Position numbers and translations under genes: made by a program. Of a stretch of 46,549 bases of DNA, positions 6,410-35,216 are shown one piece after another. Source of the DNA: Oligoflexia bacterium. Its GTDB lineage: Bacteria > Bdellovibrionota > UBA1018. Location: positions 1 to 46,549 of the forward strand of contig CAIRTR010000025.1 in the NCBI GenBank assembly GCA_903881565.1, read 5' to 3'. The notes beneath the pieces were generated by a model. That model was not told the origin of the DNA and searched no databases. It was given only the letters and a program-made list of their open reading frames with translations. Each line of letters opens with the position of its first letter. Within the stretch, counting starts at the first letter, position 1.

Positions 6410-6784
6410 TCATTCAACCAGCTTCAGTCCAAACCGAACGAAATGTCTAAAGTCAGAGTCCCCAGTGATAAGTGCAACATTTTGGTCAATACAACTTTGC
6501 GCAATCAGGCAGTCGCCTAGACGAGCTTTCAACCCCTTTTTAAGAATCGCGCGTCTCGTAAGGGCAGTTCGCTCCCAATATCCTGAACTCAAATCAATTC
6601 TAGGGAGTGCCTGAATAAAACTTTCGGCCGAGGGTGTGATTTTAGGGCCACTTAATATCTCGACGAGAACAAGGGGTGGAATCACTAGGGAGCCTTGTTC
6701 TAAGGCGATCTGCAGTGCGGACGACGCAGAAGTTTCACTCCCTTTAGCATAGTCAATCCACGCACTCGTATCGGCTGCTATCAT
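6410..6784 (-). CDS. vapC: PIN-domain ribonuclease toxin (VapC-like)
   Basis: A 124-residue PIN-domain protein. The four acidic metal-binding residues are visible: D5 (IAADTS), E42 (LVEIL), D91 (LGDCLIAQ) and D109 (TGDSDF). VapC toxins are Mg-dependent RNases that cut tRNA or rRNA; the target here cannot be predicted. It starts one base after the stop codon of the antitoxin gene, so the two are cotranscribed with antitoxin first, as is usual for VapBC. Confidence 0.92.
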   Translation of the reverse strand: MIAADTSAWIDYAKGSETSASSALQIALEQGSLVIPPLVLVEILSGPKITPSAESFIQALPRIDLSSGYWERTALTRRAILKKGLKARLGDCLIAQSCIDQNVALITGDSDFRHFVRFGLKLVE

Positions 6785-6785
6785 T

Positions 6786-6992
6786 TTACGTGCGATCCTT
6801 TTTTACTTGAGCGTAATCTAGACCGAGGTCAAATTTACCCTTAAGCTTCAAAAGACCTCGATAGGCTCCCTTCGCAGCCATTAACTCAAGACCTTTCCTC
6901 AGGGTGGGGGTGAGGCCTTCACCACTTGCTTTCAAAGCTCGCTCAATAAGTTCTTCGGGTAGCATAATTGTGATTTTTCTATCCTTCTTCAT
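6786..6992 (-). CDS. vapB: VapB-like antitoxin (ribbon-helix-helix type)
   Basis: A 68-residue protein beginning MKKDRKITIMLPEELIERAL, a strand followed by a helix as in ribbon-helix-helix DNA-binding proteins, then a C-terminal tail (KLKGKFDLGLDYAQVKKDR) that likely wraps the PIN toxin. It is encoded directly upstream of vapC with a 1-nt gap. No Shine-Dalgarno is seen. The promoter -10 ends 7 nt before the ATG, and three 12-bp-spaced iterons lie across it, consistent with autorepression and perhaps a leaderless mRNA. Confidence 0.82.
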   Translation of the reverse strand: MKKDRKITIMLPEELIERALKASGEGLTPTLRKGLELMAAKGAYRGLLKLKGKFDLGLDYAQVKKDRT

Positions 6993-7028
6993 ACCGTATA
7001 TGATGCCGTATCACATGCCGTACGTCAA
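6991..7028 (-). promoter_or_regulatory. vapBC promoter with three 12-bp-spaced iterons (candidate operator)
   Basis: On the plus strand ATACCGTAT (6991-6999), ATGCCGTAT (7003-7011) and ATGCCGTAC (7015-7023) repeat with an exact 12-bp period. On the minus strand the same bases hold TTGACG (7028-7023), a 17-nt spacer and CATCAT (7005-7000), followed by 7 nt and the vapB ATG. The overlap of repeats, promoter and start codon fits an autoregulated ribbon-helix-helix antitoxin operator. Confidence 0.55.
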
Positions 7029-8276: not shown

Positions 8277-9278
8277 CTAAAATCCCCCGGTCATCGAAAA
8301 CCCAACGTAATCCGGAGTCGCCACTGGCGTGATTGAAGTGTTTCCAAAATGCAGCAAATTAGGCAAAAAATAGCCTGAAAAGAGTCCAACAGCCGCGCCG
8401 GCCAGGACGTCTGTGGCGTAGTGTTTGTCCGCGACAATTCGCAGAGCTCCGTCAGTGGTTGCAGCCGCCATTGCTGTGATGCACGCGATTTTATCGGGCC
8501 AGCCGCCGCCATAGATGGGAAGCTTGCGATGTTCGGCGCAAACAAGTCCCGCGCTTGCGAAGCTCATGGCCGTGTGGCCACTGATGAAACTTGCGTTGCG
8601 ATCAGCGGCGTCGCACCCGACGGCGTTTGGATTTGCCGCACATTCGCGTGCGTAGGGGCGCTCGCGACCGATCAGGTCTTTCGTGGTAAGCATGAGTGTG
8701 GCCGTGACGGCCATTGTTTCGGCATCGAGCATGAAGAGTTGCCAAGCGACGCCAGGGTTTTTGTCTCCGGCAAGAACGACGGCTCCTGTGTCGATGACGG
8801 GCATCGCGATCAATGCGTAAAGAATGATATTGCTCGCAGTGTTGGCGGCGTCGCGGCCCGATTGGGTAGTGGCGCGCAGTCCGTTTCGCACGCTTTCATC
8901 GAAAAGAATCCCGCCGGTCCAATGAGGCGAGCTCGGAGTGTTGATGGTTAAGTTGGCGGTGATTATGCCTGCGGCCATTGCGCCGGTGGCCGCATACTCG
9001 GCGACGCGAAAGCGGGGCCAGGCAGGATTCCACTGGAGACGGTGTTTGTCGGCTGTTGTATCAAGAGAAACGTCGAAGGTCTTTGTGCCCTTTCCATCGA
9101 GGTCGAAGGTGAGGGGGCCGCGATCATTGGAGGCCATCTCATTGTCAGAGACTTCGATCATGGTGGAGGGTTCGATTGCCTCGTCCGCTTTTGCGGATAA
9201 AATAAGAGGATTTCCGAGTCCTGCTATTAGGGAAAAAAGAAGTGCGCCTGAAACGGATTTAAGTGCGTAAGTCTGCAT
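8277..9278 (-). CDS. Exported PAP2-family phosphatase
   Basis: A 333-residue protein with an N-terminal signal peptide (residues 1-31, cut near AKA-DE). The C-terminal half carries the three PAP2 acid-phosphatase signatures: KX6RP (K200 to R207-P208), SGH (S233-H235) and RX5HX3D (R280, H286, D290). The enzyme would act in the periplasm or inner membrane on undecaprenyl pyrophosphate, phosphatidate or similar lipid phosphates; substrate not determinable. It is transcribed alone on the minus strand, convergent with the STAS-like gene. No Shine-Dalgarno is evident. A strong promoter ends 6 nt before the ATG. Confidence 0.92.
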   Translation of the reverse strand: MQTYALKSVSGALLFSLIAGLGNPLILSAKADEAIEPSTMIEVSDNEMASNDRGPLTFDLDGKGTKTFDVSLDTTADKHRLQWNPAWPRFRVAEYAATGAMAAGIITANLTINTPSSPHWTGGILFDESVRNGLRATTQSGRDAANTASNIILYALIAMPVIDTGAVVLAGDKNPGVAWQLFMLDAETMAVTATLMLTTKDLIGRERPYARECAANPNAVGCDAADRNASFISGHTAMSFASAGLVCAEHRKLPIYGGGWPDKIACITAMAAATTDGALRIVADKHYATDVLAGAAVGLFSGYFLPNLLHFGNTSITPVATPDYVGFSMTGGF

Positions 9279-9284
9279 TGGGGG

Positions 9285-9313
9285 CTTGTAATGCAGGTGA
9301 CGCTATGTGTCAA
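9285..9313 (-). promoter_or_regulatory. Promoter of PAP2 gene, leaderless geometry
   Basis: On the minus strand: consensus TTGACA (9313-9308), 17-nt spacer, TACAAG (9290-9285), then only 6 nt (CCCCCA) before the ATG at 9278. Transcription would start at or next to the start codon. Confidence 0.6.
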
Positions 9314-12757: not shown

Positions 12758-14599
12758 CTATATCCCAAGCTTTTTATCGACTTCGGCCGACACTGTCGCG
12801 AGGAGGTTCTTTGCGCGGGCTAGGATTTCCACGCTCTGCGTGCGCTTGGTTTGACAGTAGGGCTCGTCTTTTATGCTTTTGAGGTTGATCAGCACGTTCC
12901 AGACTCCGCCTTGCACTCCCGTAAATCCGACTTGTACTCCGACGGCGCCATCGGTGAGTGAGTTGGGGTTGCCGAGTTCGACGCATTTTGAGGCAAGCTC
13001 CATGGCTCTGAAGCTAGCTTGCGCAGTCTGCCATGGAACTTCGATCGCAAGCTTGAGTCCTTCTTGCATCTTGGCCGTGCGCAGCGCTTTTTCCTCTGGG
13101 GTACTTTGCGGGAGGCGCCTTGCATCCATAAATGCCGAAAACGCGTTTGTGTCGTCATCGACCGCGCTGAGGAGTTCGTGTTTAAGTTTTTGGGCTTCGT
13201 CGGCAATCTCCTCGAGCTGGGGATCCTTTGTTTCTGTTCCCTCTTTCCCATGAGTGAGGTTGGCAACCATTGAAGCAAGTGCGGCGCAAAGTGCGCCTCC
13301 AAGTGCGGCAATCGATCCCCCGCCCGGAGCCGGGGACTCCCTGGACACTTCGTTGGTGAAGTCTGAGACTTTCATTTGAATCAGGGCTTGAGGCTTTGGT
13401 TCCGAATAACCCAAAACTTTTTTAGAAATATCAAAGGGGGCAACTTCGTTGAGACCGAGCGAAACGACTGCGGCGCTCAGAATATCCTGAGTCGGAATTC
13501 CCACGGATTTTCCCTGTTTTTCGAGATAAAATCTGCCCGACGCTAAAAGGGACTCCAGAGGAATCAATCCCACGACCTCACTGCCCGTGACTCGCAACCC
13601 ACGCTGGGCGGCCAGCTGCCTTGCTTCTTCAAAAACCAGATGTGGAGGGGTGAGGCTTGGACGCGTAAGATTAATCGAGATTTGTGCGCGTTTGTAGTCA
13701 TCGACATACCAGCCGATGGCCTTGCAGGCCTGAAAAATTCCAGGTTTGTAGGCATTTTTCCCCAAGACCTCTGGGAGCTCCACTTCGTTGGCTTCAAGAA
13801 GTTTGAGCAGGTCGTATCCGTGATCTGAGTTGCAGTGGGAGGCGGCCTCCTCTAACGATTTTGCAACATGATCGCACGAAGCACAGGGAAACTGGCCCTC
13901 GGCATAAACGAGCTTCTTGCCCTTAAAGTAAAATGGTTTCGTGTTTCCCGTGCGTCCCACGCGCCCTTTTTCGCGAAGCTCAAAAGCGATTTCGGTGGCG
14001 TGTTGTTTATCCGTCGAATTCAAGTTGATGTTGTAGGCGACCAAGAATTCGCGCGCGCCGATGACGGTGGCGCCGGCGCGCAAGTTGAGTTCAGAAGGGC
14101 CAAAATCGGGCTTCCACTGCGGTTCTTTTATTTTCCGGGCAAAGCCTTCGTATTCGCCTCTTCGAATATCCGCCAAGTTGCTGCGTTCAGGACGTGATGC
14201 AGCTTCTTCGTACAAATAGACGGGGATCTGTAACTCTTTCCCCACTCTTGCTCCCACCAGGCGCGCAATCTCCACGCACTCTTGCATACTCACACCTTCG
14301 ACAGGAACAAAGGGACAAACGTCCGTGGCTCCCATGCGTGGGTGAGCGCCCTTGTGCGAGCGCATGTCGATCACTTCGGCGGCTTTGGCGATGCCACGAA
14401 AGGCCGCTTCTGCGACGGCTTCAGGGGAGCCAATAAAAGTGACAACCGTCCGGTGAGTGTCTGAGCCGGGATCAACGCCCATGAGTTGAATTCCGTTTAC
14501 TGATTCAATGGCTGAAACGATCTCTTTAATTTTTGCAGGGTCCTTGCCTTCAGAGAAGTTCGGAACGCATTCAACAAGCCGACGGGTGTTTGTGCTCAT
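12758..14599 (-). CDS. ftcD: Bifunctional glutamate formimidoyltransferase / formimidoyl-THF cyclodeaminase
   Basis: Transfers the formimino group of formiminoglutamate (from histidine breakdown) to tetrahydrofolate, then releases ammonia to give methenyl-THF. The 613-residue protein has the formiminotransferase domain at the N-terminus (VECVPNFSEG start; catalytic H82 in RSHKGAHPR) and the cyclodeaminase domain from about 410 (ESPAPGGGSIAALGGALCA). Between the FT subdomains is an insert at about 213-290 with a C2H2-like pattern (C239, C242, H255, H260). The fused form is best known from animals but also occurs in some bacteria. It is transcribed alone. A hutD-like gene lies at 35264, but no other hut genes are in the window. 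Confidence 0.95.
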   Translation of the reverse strand: MSTNTRRLVECVPNFSEGKDPAKIKEIVSAIESVNGIQLMGVDPGSDTHRTVVTFIGSPEAVAEAAFRGIAKAAEVIDMRSHKGAHPRMGATDVCPFVPVEGVSMQECVEIARLVGARVGKELQIPVYLYEEAASRPERSNLADIRRGEYEGFARKIKEPQWKPDFGPSELNLRAGATVIGAREFLVAYNINLNSTDKQHATEIAFELREKGRVGRTGNTKPFYFKGKKLVYAEGQFPCASCDHVAKSLEEAASHCNSDHGYDLLKLLEANEVELPEVLGKNAYKPGIFQACKAIGWYVDDYKRAQISINLTRPSLTPPHLVFEEARQLAAQRGLRVTGSEVVGLIPLESLLASGRFYLEKQGKSVGIPTQDILSAAVVSLGLNEVAPFDISKKVLGYSEPKPQALIQMKVSDFTNEVSRESPAPGGGSIAALGGALCAALASMVANLTHGKEGTETKDPQLEEIADEAQKLKHELLSAVDDDTNAFSAFMDARRLPQSTPEEKALRTAKMQEGLKLAIEVPWQTAQASFRAMELASKCVELGNPNSLTDGAVGVQVGFTGVQGGVWNVLINLKSIKDEPYCQTKRTQSVEILARAKNLLATVSAEVDKKLGI

Positions 14600-14605
14600 C
14601 CACCC

Positions 14606-14635
14606 ACAATATTAAGGAATAGGCTCCGCGGTCAA
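14606..14635 (-). promoter_or_regulatory. Promoter of ftcD, short-leader geometry
   Basis: Minus strand: TTGACC (14635-14630), 18 nt, TATTGT (14611-14606), then GGGTGG and the ATG at 14599. The -10 is 6 nt from the start codon. GGGTGG could in principle act as a ribosome-binding site if transcription started further upstream. Confidence 0.45.
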
Positions 14636-15732
14636 TGACCTGTTTTATTAAAAACGGGGGGGCGGGAAGGATTCGCAATCTGTGTCTCACTCCGCAAGGC
14701 CTGCATGAGCTTGGCCTGATCGAGAAGGGTTTCGGCCGCCTTGCGCATCTTGATATTGAGGTCTGTCGTGGTGCGCGAGACGTCTTTGTAGGCGTGATAG
14801 GCGACATCTGCGTCCATGGCCCAGGGCTCAAGCTCCACTTCGACGCGTTGAAGCACAGTTGCGTTCTTCTCACTGATCTTGCGTAACGCTTGAGCAGTGC
14901 GATGAAGCTGGTTTGCCATGTTGTGTGAGGGGTTCTCCTGGGCGTCCTCATTCTTTAAGAGGTTATCAAGAGCCATTTTCTCAAGTTGAGTCGTGATTTT
15001 CTGGGTTTGCTGCAAGATGCGCCGACTTTCATGAATGGTCGCAAGCTCTGCGTGCACGCGCTTGCGCAAGGTAGCAATCGTGGAGTGGGAGTGTTTTGCA
15101 GAGTTTTCAAGCTCTTTGGTTTCGTTCACGAGGTCGCGGATTTGGTGTCCGAAGAGGGTCAGGACCTCTTTGAAACGAGGAATCCATTGGGCGACCTTCT
15201 CCCTGATGTCGGTTTCCTTCTGCGTTTTTTTCTGGGTTCCTCGGGCGCGGCTGAGCACGAAAAAGACTCCAAACAGGAGCCCAAAAAAACTGATTAACCA
15301 AAGGTCATTTGCGACTCGGCTTCGGGTACCCAAGAATCCAAGATAGCCTGCCTCAACGGTGACGAGAACCCCTGTTGCATCTTCGGGCGTGATCACACGC
15401 GAATACTCAAGCACTCCTGATTCTCGATCGAAGTGGTGGCGGTCCGTAACTTGCGCATTAAAGTCCGTCTGAACACGGCGAATGTTCAAGGGATGAGGTT
15501 GAGTGCCTTGCGTGAGAATTCCAACGGCCCACCCGACGGGATCGCGCTGAGAGCGCTCGCGGGCATTGAGCGCCAGACTCTCGACCTGGGTTGCAACTTG
15601 GCGTGCCAGCGTGAGACTCGTGCCGAGCCTTTGGTTGTTGGATCGAAAACTGTCGACACCAAACGTAAGCCCCGTGATGAGCAACGCAGTTCCAAGACAA
15701 GCGGCGATATGGATACGCTGAGAAAATTCCAT
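14632..15732 (-). CDS. Two-TM sensor-like protein with long coiled coil
   Basis: A 366-residue protein. One TM helix at about 8-26 (IHIAACLGTALLITGLTFGV), a periplasmic segment of about 115 residues, a second TM at about 143-161 (LWLISFFGLLFGVFFVLS), and a cytoplasmic tail of about 200 residues that is almost entirely helical with heptad-like repeats. The topology recalls methyl-accepting chemotaxis receptors, but the conserved hairpin-tip motif of MCPs is not visible and no HAMP domain is clear. It may be a degenerate receptor or a scaffold. The adjacent genes do not explain its role. Confidence 0.65.
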   Translation of the reverse strand: MEFSQRIHIAACLGTALLITGLTFGVDSFRSNNQRLGTSLTLARQVATQVESLALNARERSQRDPVGWAVGILTQGTQPHPLNIRRVQTDFNAQVTDRHHFDRESGVLEYSRVITPEDATGVLVTVEAGYLGFLGTRSRVANDLWLISFFGLLFGVFFVLSRARGTQKKTQKETDIREKVAQWIPRFKEVLTLFGHQIRDLVNETKELENSAKHSHSTIATLRKRVHAELATIHESRRILQQTQKITTQLEKMALDNLLKNEDAQENPSHNMANQLHRTAQALRKISEKNATVLQRVEVELEPWAMDADVAYHAYKDVSRTTTDLNIKMRKAAETLLDQAKLMQALRSETQIANPSRPPVFNKTGH

Positions 15733-17007: not shown

Positions 17008-18012
17008 TCAATCCCCGAAAAGCACCACTTCTCTTAAGCTTGCTGAATCCTCAAAGAGACAGATAAAATCCACGTTTCTTTGGAGCGCATCAATTCGGAG
17101 TTTTCGCCTAATGTAAAAAATCTTGGTTTCAGAAATCGTGCTCCCAAACTGAATCATGGTCTGTAGAGCATTTTGGGTGAATGAAGAATTCCCAGTTGAA
17201 ACCGCCGCATAAGTCGGAGGAGAGAACTTGAATTCAATTCCAAACTGGCCCGAAAGGTATCCGATGACTCGATTTGCGATCGTGTTTCCAAGCTCGGAGA
17301 CCGCATCTTTGCGCAAAGCGAGGGATTCTGAATCCTTCGCATCCGTCTCGCTAATCGCGGCAGAAACATCGTTAAAACTCTCTGCCGAAAAAACCAAACC
17401 AGCGGCTCCACGCATGGAGCTTTCAAAACTCAAAGAAACCGCGCAACACGAGGTTCCCCAGGTTTTTGCAATTTTCAAGAGCGTTGCGCTTCCATCAAGC
17501 CATTCTGCTTCTGAGGCGGCCTCGCTGGTATGGGGCAAGGAAATCGTGGGCGCCAAAGTCTCGATAGCCCGATCAACACTATTGCTAAGCGCCTGCTTAA
17601 CCATCAGACTTTTCATGTCCATCTGACTTTCGGGTGAACTCGAGGCATCTGGCAGATGTTTCTTGATGGTCTCAATGAGATTGGATGGAACACCAATAAT
17701 AGGTTTATTGATGACATCACGAGCGCCGAGCTCAAGGCAACGCTTGATGGTGCCCTCTTGTCTTTCGGCCGTAACCACAATGACGGGGATATTGCTGTTG
17801 GCTTCCCGCATTTTTTCCAGAAAAAATATCCCATCCATGACAGGCATCAAAAGATCGCAAAGAATGAGGTCTGGTTTTTCATTCTTGGCCACCTCAAAAC
17901 CTTCCAAACCATTTGAGGCGAAAAGGAGTGAAAAGGTGCCTTCCTTGGCCAATAGAGCCGAAATATTTCGTTGTGCGATTTTTGAGTCATCAATGACAAG
18001 AATTTTGGCCAT
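17008..18012 (-). CDS. Response regulator fused to a CheX/CheC-like phosphatase domain
   Basis: A 334-residue cytoplasmic protein. Residues 1-120 are a canonical receiver with acidic pair D8/D9, phospho-acceptor D53, T81 and K103. After a Ser/Pro-rich linker, residues about 160-334 resemble the CheC/CheX/FliY phosphatase fold. The motif SELGNTIANRVIG contains E240 and N243 in the ExxN arrangement that CheX uses to remove phosphate from CheY-P, plus N247. Such fusions may control their own receiver or another CheY. It is transcribed alone, from a promoter whose -10 ends 5 nt before the ATG. Confidence 0.85.
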   Translation of the reverse strand: MAKILVIDDSKIAQRNISALLAKEGTFSLLFASNGLEGFEVAKNEKPDLILCDLLMPVMDGIFFLEKMREANSNIPVIVVTAERQEGTIKRCLELGARDVINKPIIGVPSNLIETIKKHLPDASSSPESQMDMKSLMVKQALSNSVDRAIETLAPTISLPHTSEAASEAEWLDGSATLLKIAKTWGTSCCAVSLSFESSMRGAAGLVFSAESFNDVSAAISETDAKDSESLALRKDAVSELGNTIANRVIGYLSGQFGIEFKFSPPTYAAVSTGNSSFTQNALQTMIQFGSTISETKIFYIRRKLRIDALQRNVDFICLFEDSASLREVVLFGD

Positions 18013-18017
18013 AGTTC

Positions 18018-18047
18018 ATAGTATCTGTCGGCATCCCGGGTTTTCAA
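18018..18047 (-). promoter_or_regulatory. Promoter of the receiver-CheX gene, leaderless geometry
   Basis: Minus strand: TTGAAA (18047-18042), 18 nt, TACTAT (18023-18018), 5 nt, ATG at 18012. Confidence 0.5.
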
Positions 18048-20096: not shown

Positions 20097-20824
20097 GCCT
20101 TCACACTCCGGAAGCCATAACGTTTCTTTTTCCAGGGCGGACGTTTCACGGCACTTAGAAAAGTTTTCCATGCGTAGGCAAACAAGCCCGGAACATTAAC
20201 TGAGGAGCTTTGCTTTTCGTAGCGCACCGGAACGGGAACTTCAGCAACTCGAAAACCATACATGACGCAATCCATGAGGATGTCACTCGCAAACGCATGG
20301 GTATCCGGGTAGGATTCGAGCGGAAGCGCTTCCAGCACGCGGCGGTGGTAGGCACGCATTCCGCTATGCCATTCTCCAAAAGTAACGCCAAACCAAATAT
20401 TTTCAAACATCGTCAGCGCGCGGTTGCCGAGATAGCGATAAAGAGGCATCCCGCCCGCCAAGGATTCATCGCGACTGCGAATGCGATTGGCCTGAATCAC
20501 ATCAAAATGATCGCGCTTGATGTACTCAACAAGCAGGTCAGCCACGGAAGGCTCATATTGATAGTCGGGATGGACTTCGATGACGATGTCCGCTCCCTGC
20601 CGAAGGGCTTCACGATAGAGTCGCTTTAGGTTTCCGCCATAGCCCAGGTTCTTTTCATGGGTGATGACATGCAGTCCTAATTCTTTTCCGACCTCAGCGG
20701 TTCGGTCCTGACTCACGTTGTTGCCTAGAAAAATGTTCTTTCGAAGACTTTCGGGCAGGGCAGCAACGGTTTGAGCGAGCGTCTTTTCAACATTATAGCC
20801 GGGCATTGCAACAATAATTTTCAT
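20093..20824 (-). CDS. Family 2 glycosyltransferase
   Basis: A 243-residue GT-A fold enzyme (MKIIVAMPGYNVEKTL at the N-terminus). The metal-binding segment reads EVHPDYQYEP in place of the more common DADGQ; this HPDYQY variant occurs in polyprenol-phosphate-type glycosyltransferases. No C-terminal membrane anchor is seen, so it is soluble or peripheral at the inner membrane. It heads the sugar operon with the methyltransferase and RmlC-like genes and overlaps the former by 4 nt. A promoter lies immediately upstream, divergent from glpK. Confidence 0.88.
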   Translation of the reverse strand: MKIIVAMPGYNVEKTLAQTVAALPESLRKNIFLGNNVSQDRTAEVGKELGLHVITHEKNLGYGGNLKRLYREALRQGADIVIEVHPDYQYEPSVADLLVEYIKRDHFDVIQANRIRSRDESLAGGMPLYRYLGNRALTMFENIWFGVTFGEWHSGMRAYHRRVLEALPLESYPDTHAFASDILMDCVMYGFRVAEVPVPVRYEKQSSSVNVPGLFAYAWKTFLSAVKRPPWKKKRYGFRSVKA

Positions 20825-20835
20825 AACTGACTCGG

Positions 20836-20865
20836 AATATAACCAGGAAAAGAGGGAGTGCGCAA
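20836..20865 (-). promoter_or_regulatory. Promoter of the sugar operon
   Basis: Minus strand: TTGCGC (20865-20860), 18 nt, TATATT (20841-20836), then 11 nt to the ATG at 20824. The predicted leader is about 4-5 nt with no Shine-Dalgarno. Confidence 0.45.
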
Positions 20866-20880: not shown

Positions 20881-20909
20881 TTGACATGCGCTCAGGGGGG
20901 GGCGATATT
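20881..20909 (+). promoter_or_regulatory. Promoter of glpK, leaderless geometry
   Basis: Consensus TTGACA (20881-20886), 17 nt, GATATT (20904-20909), then 6 nt to the ATG at 20916. The spacer contains a run of eight G. The divergent sugar-operon promoter lies only about 15 bp away. Confidence 0.5.
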
Positions 20910-20915
20910 TTGCCA

Positions 20916-22409
20916 ATGGACTATCTCTTAGCTGTTGATCAGGGGACGACGGGAAGCACAGCATTATTGATGGATACGAATTTGAATCGTATCGCAGATG
21001 CGAGTGTGGATTTTGAGCAGCATTTTCCAAAGCCCGGATGGGTCGAGCACGATTTAGGCGAAATTTGGAGTACGGTTGTCCAAACTGTACGTGAGGTCAC
21101 CAAGCATGTGGAGACTCGCAAGATTGTTGCGATCGGAATCACGAATCAACGCGAGACTTTGTGCTTCTGGGACAAGAAGACTGGGGAGCCCTTGTGCCGC
21201 GCAATTGTTTGGCAGGATAGGCGGACTTCGGATTTTTGCGCAGAACTTCGAGCCAAAGGAAAAGAGCCCTTTTTTCAGGAGGCCACCGGCCTTCTCTTGG
21301 ATCCCTATTTTTCGGGGACAAAAGCCGCTTGGGCTTTGAAAAACTGGCCCCAATTGAAAAAAGCTCGAGATGAAGGCCGCCTGGCCGCAGGAACGATTGA
21401 TAGCTATCTCATGGCGCGGTTCTCTGGCGGCGGCGTGCATGTCACGGAACCGAGCAACGCCTCTCGAACGCTTTGTTTCCATTTAACCAAACACAAATGG
21501 GACCCTGAGCTCTGTGCCGCTTTGGATGTTCCCATGGATATTTGGCCTGAAGTCAGGCCTTCGACTGGTATTTTCACCCTGACCCGCGGTTTTCCCGGAT
21601 TACCCGACGGAATCCCGATTACGGGAGTTTTGGGGGATCAGCAAGCGGCGCTCTTAGGGCAGTCATGTACTGAAGAAGGAACGGCGAAGTGTACTTACGG
21701 TACGGGAGCGTTCTTATTGCTCAACACGGGCCGAAAACCTGCGCGCAGCAAGCACCGACTTTTGACGACGGTCGCCTGGGCGATGAATGGCGATCAGTAT
21801 GTGTATGCCTTGGAAGGGAGTGCTTTTATCGCAGGTGCCGCCGTTCAATGGCTGCGAGATGGACTCAAGTTTTTTCAGGATGCGAGTGAGATCGAAGCGC
21901 TTGCTTCTTCTGTGCCCTCGAGTGAGGGAGTTGTTTTTGTGCCCGCGTTGACCGGTTTGGCTGCCCCTTATTGGGACGCCGAGGCGACGGGGATGTTCAC
22001 GGGGTTAACCCGGGGGACGACTCGTGCGCACTTGGCTCGCGCCGTTTTGGAAGGAATTGCTTTTCAAAGTGCCGACATTCTCGAAGCCATGCAAAAAGAT
22101 GTGGGGAGACCCCTGGCCAGGCTTAACGTGGACGGTGGAGCCTCTGCGAACAACCTTCTCATGCAGTTTCAGTCGGATCTGCTTGGCGTGGAGCTGGTGC
22201 GACCCAAATATCTTGAAACAACGAGTTTGGGCGCGGTGATTGCGGCGGGTCTGGGCGCAGGCGTTTGGACTGATTTTTCAGATGTCGAGAAAACCTGGAA
22301 AGAAGATCGTACGTTCAAGCCTGAATTTACGGTCGAAGAGCGCGAGAGCGCGATGAAGCGCTGGCATGCGGCTGTGTCCCGGGTTATTCACAAGCCCGTG
22401 CAGGTTTAA
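20916..22409 (+). CDS. glpK: Glycerol kinase
   Basis: Phosphorylates glycerol to glycerol 3-phosphate with ATP. A 497-residue FGGY-family kinase with the N-terminal phosphate loop LAVDQGTTGSTALL, AIVWQDRRT, GVLGDQQAAL, TYGTGAFLLLN and C-terminal GIAFQSADIL/VDGGASANN blocks, all as in GlpK. ATG 20916 gives the family N-terminus MDYLLAVDQGTT; the frame is open slightly upstream, but that would include the promoter. No glpF or glpD is adjacent. radA begins 3 nt after the stop, so the two are cotranscribed. Confidence 0.96.
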   Translation: MDYLLAVDQGTTGSTALLMDTNLNRIADASVDFEQHFPKPGWVEHDLGEIWSTVVQTVREVTKHVETRKIVAIGITNQRETLCFWDKKTGEPLCRAIVWQDRRTSDFCAELRAKGKEPFFQEATGLLLDPYFSGTKAAWALKNWPQLKKARDEGRLAAGTIDSYLMARFSGGGVHVTEPSNASRTLCFHLTKHKWDPELCAALDVPMDIWPEVRPSTGIFTLTRGFPGLPDGIPITGVLGDQQAALLGQSCTEEGTAKCTYGTGAFLLLNTGRKPARSKHRLLTTVAWAMNGDQYVYALEGSAFIAGAAVQWLRDGLKFFQDASEIEALASSVPSSEGVVFVPALTGLAAPYWDAEATGMFTGLTRGTTRAHLARAVLEGIAFQSADILEAMQKDVGRPLARLNVDGGASANNLLMQFQSDLLGVELVRPKYLETTSLGAVIAAGLGAGVWTDFSDVEKTWKEDRTFKPEFTVEERESAMKRWHAAVSRVIHKPVQV

Positions 22410-27812: not shown

Positions 27813-28173
27813 TGAGAGAAGATTTCTGGCCGCCCGGGCTTTCTTCATAGAATGCGATCAGGGTTTTGAGCTCGGCGATTTCCTCGTGCGCGTTTTTGAG
27901 TTCGCGCCTCAGCGTCGTGATCTCCATGCCTGCTTCAGGCTCCATGGGCCGAGAAGGAACGGGCGCGGTCTCAAGGCCGTCGGAAAAAATCATGTACCGT
28001 CCTTCTTCTAAACGGAACGGAATTTTATTAGATTTGATTTGCCTCCGGAGCGTCGAAAGACTGACACCCGATTTGACGGCGTAGTCCATCAGCGGAAGCC
28101 AGCTCGTCGGAAAGATTTCGTTTAGGTCATTTGTATTAGAAGTATGGTTTTCGTGTGCATCGCGTCTGGACAT
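27805..28173 (-). CDS. MerR-like helix-turn-helix DNA-binding protein
   Basis: A 122-residue protein. Residues about 27-65 match a MerR/excisionase-type winged helix (MDYAVKSGVSLSTLRRQIKS followed by NKIPFRLEEGRYMI). Residues about 85-115 form a coiled coil (ITTLRRELKNAHEEIAELKT), probably for dimerisation. It likely regulates transcription, perhaps of itself and the divergent patatin gene. It heads the unit with the outer-membrane protein and ligA. Confidence 0.72.
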
Positions 28174-28179
28174 ATCTTT

Positions 28180-28207
28180 ATTGTATTTCCAGGATCTTTA
28201 AATTCAA
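28180..28207 (-). promoter_or_regulatory. Promoter of the MerR-like gene, leaderless geometry
   Basis: Minus strand: TTGAAT (28207-28202), 16 nt, TACAAT (28185-28180), 6 nt, ATG at 28173. On the plus strand the same 48-bp divergent region has TATTCT seven bases before the patatin ATG, though without a convincing -35. Confidence 0.5.
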
Positions 28208-34265: not shown

Positions 34266-35180
34266 TTATTGGTTTTCTACAACGACAAAATGATCGATCT
34301 GCTTCTTTTTTTGGAGTGAATCTGCAGCTTTTTCTGCGATTTTCTTGGTCGAAAATCCGCCAAGGTAGACGCGGTACCAGGTCCCCTTACCTTTGACGTC
34401 GGCCTCATGAATGGAGCTCGCAAGGCCAGAGCCTCCGATCTCTTTGAGTCGGGCTTCGGCTTCTCCGCGAGTCGGAAAGGATCCGACTTGAAGTGCATAT
34501 TTTCCAGACGACGTTTCTTCAGCTGCTGAATCAGGGGCTGAATCGTGGGAAGCCTCTTTCGTGGCCTCTTCGTGCTTGACGGGAGCGGGTTCATGTTTTG
34601 CTGCGGCGGACTTGGGTTTTTCTGGATGCGTGGCGAGGGGAGCATCCTCATCGGATTTTGCATCAGGCGTTGTATCGGTCTTTGCCTCAGGCTTCGTTTC
34701 TGATTTCTCGGATTCGCCGCCTTTTTCTGCTTTTTCTACCTTCTTTTCATCACTTTTTTCGCTTGAGTGTTCTGCTGCTTTTTCTGGCTCAGCTTTGGAT
34801 TCGGCATGCGTCTGGGCGTGGGAGGTCGTCGCACCGCCGGCCTTGTTTTTGGAGTTCTTCGGCAATTCAATCTGACGAGGAACATCGAGTTTGATGCCCG
34901 TGCGGGTGACTTCGTCATGCAAGGATTGATTTAGGCTTTCATCCGCCGCGCCTTGGACACCCTTGGCTTGTTCGGCGAGTTCATGGCGATCGGGAATTTT
35001 ATCCGAGGCCGTCTCAAGGGGCGTGCCGCTGTTTGATTTTGCTTCGACGCCTTTCGGGGCAATTCGCTTGCCCATGTGAATTCCGAGGGTGAAGGAAAAG
35101 CTAGCGATCCCAAGCCCCATTGCGATCAGTAATCCGATCTCTTTTTTACCAAAAATATAGAGCTGATTCTTAGTTTCCAT
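34266..35180 (-). CDS. SPOR-domain membrane protein
   Basis: A 304-residue protein. One TM helix near residues 16-34 (GLLIAMGLGIASFSFTLGIH), a long periplasmic low-complexity linker rich in Glu, Lys, Ala, Ser and Pro (about 60-220), and a C-terminal SPOR domain (KYALQVGSFPTRGEAEARLK ... FVVVENQ) that binds peptidoglycan stripped of stem peptides at division sites. It resembles FtsN/DedD-type proteins. ATG 35180 was chosen over a TTG at 35216 because the TTG is part of the -35 promoter element. It probably leads the unit with the cupin and manC. Confidence 0.88.
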   Translation of the reverse strand: METKNQLYIFGKKEIGLLIAMGLGIASFSFTLGIHMGKRIAPKGVEAKSNSGTPLETASDKIPDRHELAEQAKGVQGAADESLNQSLHDEVTRTGIKLDVPRQIELPKNSKNKAGGATTSHAQTHAESKAEPEKAAEHSSEKSDEKKVEKAEKGGESEKSETKPEAKTDTTPDAKSDEDAPLATHPEKPKSAAAKHEPAPVKHEEATKEASHDSAPDSAAEETSSGKYALQVGSFPTRGEAEARLKEIGGSGLASSIHEADVKGKGTWYRVYLGGFSTKKIAEKAADSLQKKKQIDHFVVVENQ

Positions 35181-35187
35181 TTCCTTA

Positions 35188-35216
35188 AGAATATCGGCAG
35201 CTGTGCACGATGTCAA
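35188..35216 (-). promoter_or_regulatory. Promoter of the SPOR gene, leaderless geometry
   Basis: Minus strand: perfect TTGACA (35216-35211), 17-nt spacer, TATTCT (35193-35188), then 7 nt to the ATG at 35180. AAGGAA lies in those 7 nt but only one base from the ATG, too close for a normal ribosome-binding site. Confidence 0.6.

Follow-up and report, generated by a model that had tools for sequence, protein, structure and literature searches.

Initiation on leaderless mRNAs relies on a 5'-terminal start codon recognised with the initiator tRNA and involves no Shine-Dalgarno (SD) pairing. In the survey of Zheng et al (2011; PMC3160421) a -10-like signal around 10 bp before the start, called TA-led, was taken to denote leaderless genes. 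It was present in 207 of the 953 bacterial genomes, and in the delta-proteobacteria in 8 of the 33. A later survey assigned 21.6% of bacterial species to a leaderless class and, as summarised in PMC9581028, GeneMarkS-2 (Lomsadze et al, 2018) has a class for leaderless transcription. The leaderless transcriptomes of Mycobacterium and Deinococcus have, according to citations in the same article, been mapped experimentally, and in M. smegmatis leaderless mRNAs are about a quarter of the transcripts (PMC5397173). Initiation factors and some antibiotics affect such mRNAs differently (PMC9581028, PMC10783764). In B. bacteriovorus 140 attack-phase promoters, mostly FliA-type in that two thirds have a motif of this kind, were mapped in a study of transcription start sites (PMC3627812), the text of which has no word starting with 'leader'. 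Bdellovibrio is not named in the text of Zheng et al (2011; PMC3160421) or in the other leaderless surveys checked, and our literature search found no relevant report on leaderless mRNAs in Bdellovibrio.

The DNA analysed here (the window, 46,549 nucleotides) is contig 25 of a 4.56-Mb, 323-contig Bdellovibrionota MAG. The source organism is an uncultured relative of the predatory Bdellovibrio, the nearest named relatives in a comparison of GlpK being Bdellovibrionales and related MAGs. Seven sigma70-like promoters ending 5-7 nt before a start codon had been predicted in the window, and their hexamers, spacers, gaps and coordinates are all correct. The starts of the seven genes were reproduced by gene calling that used coding potential and no upstream signal. 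Promoters were scored with a sigma70 matrix of approximate E. coli frequencies, the use of another species being a limitation; d is the number of bases separating the -10 hexamer from the start codon. The seven score from 8.8 to 13.4, values matched in 0.01-0.43% of equal-sized upstream control windows.

The strongest precedes the SPOR-domain gene (PF05036), where TTGACA-17-TATTCT-7-ATG lies at 35180..35216 on the minus strand (-35 35211-35216, -10 35188-35193, ATG 35180) with a score of 13.4 (0.01% of control windows). The glpK promoter, TTGACA-17-GATATT-6-ATG, is the only one of the seven on the plus strand, at 20881..20916 (-35 20881-20886, -10 20904-20909, ATG 20916; score 11.5, 0.06%). 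The remainder are on the minus strand. A small HTH gene, described as MerR-like and with an HTH match under the Pfam cut-off, has TTGAAT-16-TACAAT-6-ATG at 28173..28207 (-35 28202-28207, -10 28180-28185, ATG 28173; score 10.7, 0.11%), and a gene with Response_reg and CheX domains has TTGAAA-18-TACTAT-5-ATG at 18012..18047 (-35 18042-18047, -10 18018-18023, ATG 18012; score 10.5, 0.12%). The ftcD-like gene has TTGACC-18-TATTGT-6-ATG at 14599..14635 (-35 14630-14635, -10 14606-14611, ATG 14599; score 9.9, 0.19%); its -35 box overlaps the stop codon of the preceding gene (14632-15732), so that read-through transcription may also occur. At the PAP2 gene (PF01569) TTGACA-17-TACAAG-6-ATG lies at 9278..9313 (-35 9308-9313, -10 9285-9290, ATG 9278; score 8.8, 0.43%).

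The seventh, TTGACG-17-CATCAT-7-ATG at 6992..7028 on the minus strand (-35 7023-7028, -10 7000-7005, ATG 6992; score 9.4, 0.3%), serves a small gene in the vapB position; the vapC gene downstream (6410-6784) has a VapC match slightly below the model cut-off. A paralogue on contig L070 (6505-6723) has identical promoter geometry. Repeats of the TACGGYAT / ATGGTAT type, spotted by eye, extend over the promoter and start codon of both genes (window 6992-7028; L070 6505-6765). They are as expected of a putative autoregulatory operator; a repeat finder returned just one short palindrome.

Among the 30 testable heads of transcription units in the window there is no intermediate class, seven scoring at least 8.8 and 23 at most 0.4. 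A strong promoter 5-7 nt from the start thus occurs at 7/30 heads against a control rate of about 0.4% (binomial P about 5e-11). The GT2 operon head comes close to the same geometry, as had been claimed, with TTGCGC-18-TATATT at 20824..20864 on the minus strand placed 11 nt from the ATG at 20824; it scores 8.1 at d=11 and belongs to a near-leaderless class. Four other heads had been listed as having normal leaders with an SD. This holds for 10171 (GGGAGGG), 10724 (TTGGAGG) and 5515 (CTGGAG), which carry SD-like sequences, but 38523 has only AAAAGGGG.

The original prediction was staked on an enrichment of -10 motifs near starts across the genome, and this enrichment proved strong and sharply positioned. 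We sampled 1.18 Mb of the genome, of which 0.46 Mb was chosen blind to the signal; since many of the other contigs were selected for pattern hits, rates from the whole sample are inflated and we prefer the figures from the blind contigs or corrected for ascertainment. Calling a head start-adjacent at a score of at least 8 with d=5-7, 8.4% of 622 heads qualified in all sampled DNA compared with 0.7% expected, and on the blind contigs, a small sample of 10 sites, 10/212 heads compared with 1.3 expected (P 9e-7). Only 4/318 operon-internal genes were start-adjacent by this measure, and none of 272 heads in nine 50-kb stretches of E. coli K-12. Start-adjacent promoters are most frequent at d=6 (26) and d=7 (23), compared with a background of 1.4 at each position. 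Promoters at d=9-10 form another, lower peak (9 matches on the blind contigs, about 0.8 expected) that suggests leaders of 2-3 nt; one example in the source genome (G000) is L196:18641-18943.

A two-box scan (TTGACA with up to 2 mismatches, a spacer of 16-18 and TANNNT, heads being counted at d=5-8) gave 33 heads in all sampled DNA where 5.2 were expected. Without the window and the ascertained sites there were 20 compared with 4.9 (P 2e-7), and on the blind contigs 6 compared with 1.4. A -35 box at normal spacing (16-18) therefore accompanies the start-adjacent -10 above chance in these scans. The arrangement had been said to apply at many transcription-unit heads; it is indeed recurrent, but confined to a minority of about 5-10%, i.e. 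roughly 1 in 10-20, and the window is richer in it than the genome.

Start-adjacent genes had also been said to have no usable SD, and they show no SD enrichment over shuffled sequence, a 4-nt match being found at 22% of these heads compared with 26% after shuffling. The corresponding figures are 57% and 33% for heads with a more distant promoter, and 63% and 39% for operon-internal genes. The MAG contains no 16S gene from which to read the anti-SD. GTG serves as the start codon in 5 of the 24 genes with d=6.

Transcription normally begins 7-8 nt past the -10 hexamer. With d=6-7 the +1 of a sigma70-type promoter would coincide with the first base of the start codon, and at neighbouring distances it would lie within about 3 nt of that base, so that the mRNAs would be leaderless or nearly so. 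Very probably, then, these are ordinary promoters of the housekeeping sigma factor with +1 on the start codon, giving rise to leaderless mRNAs in a genome that also uses SD-led initiation. From what is established for leaderless mRNAs, these would be translated without SD pairing, the 5'-terminal start codon being recognised together with the initiator tRNA. The placement of the promoters, the enrichment of this placement, the missing SD and the conservation among orthologues are direct observations, whereas we infer where the RNAs begin and how their translation is initiated.

A leadered transcript might instead be the main product, made from an upstream promoter, with the start-adjacent promoters real but minor, or genes such as ftcD might mostly be read through. 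The vapB-position gene does have a marginally higher-scoring match at d=94, and only 32 nt separate ftcD from its neighbour. However, in 6/7 of the window genes no position among the 150 outscores the start-adjacent promoter, and the genes have no SD, which a leadered transcript should use, making this account very unlikely.

If, on the other hand, the start codons were misplaced and the true starts lay further downstream, the mRNAs would have ordinary short leaders. The coding-potential calls do favour ATG and individual calls can err. Nevertheless, an in-frame start preceded by a 5-nt SD within the next 33 codons is absent from all 47 start-adjacent genes but present in 5% of the other heads, and for this reason misplacement is not the explanation. 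Protein homology also reaches the predicted N-termini, to residue 1-4 in the SPOR protein and from residue 1 in MraY, and misplaced starts would not result in a sharp peak at d=6-7. We regard this alternative as highly improbable.

The leaderless mode would be used by toxin-antitoxin-like modules together with core genes, with SD-led initiation elsewhere. The start-adjacent heads include the toxin-antitoxin genes Phd/YefM (three times), MazE, a FitA-like ribbon-helix-helix protein, BrnT and the VapC module of the window, as well as a further candidate with a weak ParE match. Core genes are represented by SSB, the transcription-repair coupling factor, an MraY-type glycosyltransferase, a PPIase, an L,D-transpeptidase and a MerR regulator. 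Small toxin-antitoxin-like pairs are over-represented (9/54 compared with 15/568, P 7e-5). The possibility that the signal reflects only toxin-antitoxin operators was rejected because it outlasts the removal of small proteins, 36 start-adjacent heads remaining where 3.6 are expected.

Every one of the 28 genomes in its family, which span 22 genera, has the SPOR gene, and each of the 28 loci has a promoter scoring at least 8 near the start, though that at L099 looks spurious. The distance is 4-8, making the promoter start-adjacent, in 14 loci, 9-12 in 7 and at least 13 in 7. A 5-nt SD is found only at L103 and L106, where the promoters are 21 and 19 nt away. Orthologous genes thus appear to swap between leaderless and SD-led modes. 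That the orthologues with the SD are the ones with a promoter 19-21 nt away supports the proposal that two modes of initiation coexist, and the leaderless reading as a whole gains support, at the level of sequence, from the positional enrichment, the lack of an SD and the SPOR orthologues.

An mraY-like gene likewise has a start-adjacent promoter, with a common stretch TGAAAATNTGTAGCAT in three genera. At this gene (L086:5934-7010) and its orthologues (L207 and L208) the promoter spacer TGAAAATNTG is kept in the three genera; such conservation exceeds the need of a plain promoter and possibly indicates a regulator site. The start-adjacent geometry of glpK and ftcD was not conserved in relatives. 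A search for orthologues of the receiver-CheX gene returned mostly other response regulators and yielded no clean orthologue set.

To look across the phylum we used a strict two-box pattern, with a spacing-shifted version of it as the control. In 192 Bdellovibrionota genomes TTGAC-N17-19-TANNNT-N6-7-ATG occurs 2498 times, compared with 959 for the N14-15 control, and the excess is seen in 177 of the 192. The ratio is 4.5 in the family of the source organism; the largest of the other families has 1.9. A 400-kb sample of G094, from another genus of the family, had 5 sites compared with about 1.2, a weaker signal, and two Bacteroidota genomes showed no excess (4 compared with 7, and 16 compared with 14). 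That AT-rich hexamers fell near starts by chance or were selected by eye is scarcely credible, for although the first list contains the imperfect -10 boxes TACAAG, GATATT and CATCAT and single sites could be chance, as a general account this is refuted by all of the controls (other offsets, operon-internal genes, E. coli, Bacteroidota and shifted spacing). Returning to leaderless initiation, the odds are about even that it is a second mode ancestral to the Bdellovibrionota and present throughout the phylum. In that case a core of genes that contains the SPOR protein, mraY and probably others would have conserved it, and toxin-antitoxin-like modules would make up a strong share of its users. 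Genes would then switch state as the promoter slides to or from the start codon.

A repeated intergenic element with an SD was also seen in the source genome, with six exact-core copies in 1.18 Mb: L200:15508-15640, L075:415-547 and L066:14833-14965 on the plus strand, and L070:4392-4524, L077:399-531 and L025:6938-7070 on the minus strand. A conserved 5' part is followed by AAAGGAGGTGATCC, a 14-nt perfect SD, and, after a few nt, by the ATG of an ORF of 30-50 codons; the ORFs have a common LEKLKQK motif. AAAGGAGGTGATCC is complementary to the 3' end that 16S rRNA usually has. The SD can pair with the upstream CCTCCCTTC in a predicted hairpin that would hide it. No Rfam match was obtained for the two copies searched.

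Starts at leaderless genes tend to be placed wrongly by gene finders that look for an SD. The SPOR family offers a small natural set in which one orthologous gene differs in promoter position, SD and start codon, so that the evolutionary switch between leaderless and SD-led initiation is directly testable there. The mode itself is already known in other bacteria; for the Bdellovibrionota we found no earlier report, and the orthologue evidence is unusually clean. The signal is the same start-proximal, -10-like one as that of the TA-led genes of Zheng et al (2011), to which the -35 box, the lack of an SD and the conservation in individual orthologues are added here for the Bdellovibrionota. In Mycobacterium and Deinococcus leaderless mRNAs are a large share of transcripts and were mapped by RNA sequencing, whereas here the mode applies to about 5-10% of heads, as judged from sequence alone. 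Shared with those systems are a -10 box that adjoins the start, no SD and SD-led genes in the same genome, and GTG starts occur here too.
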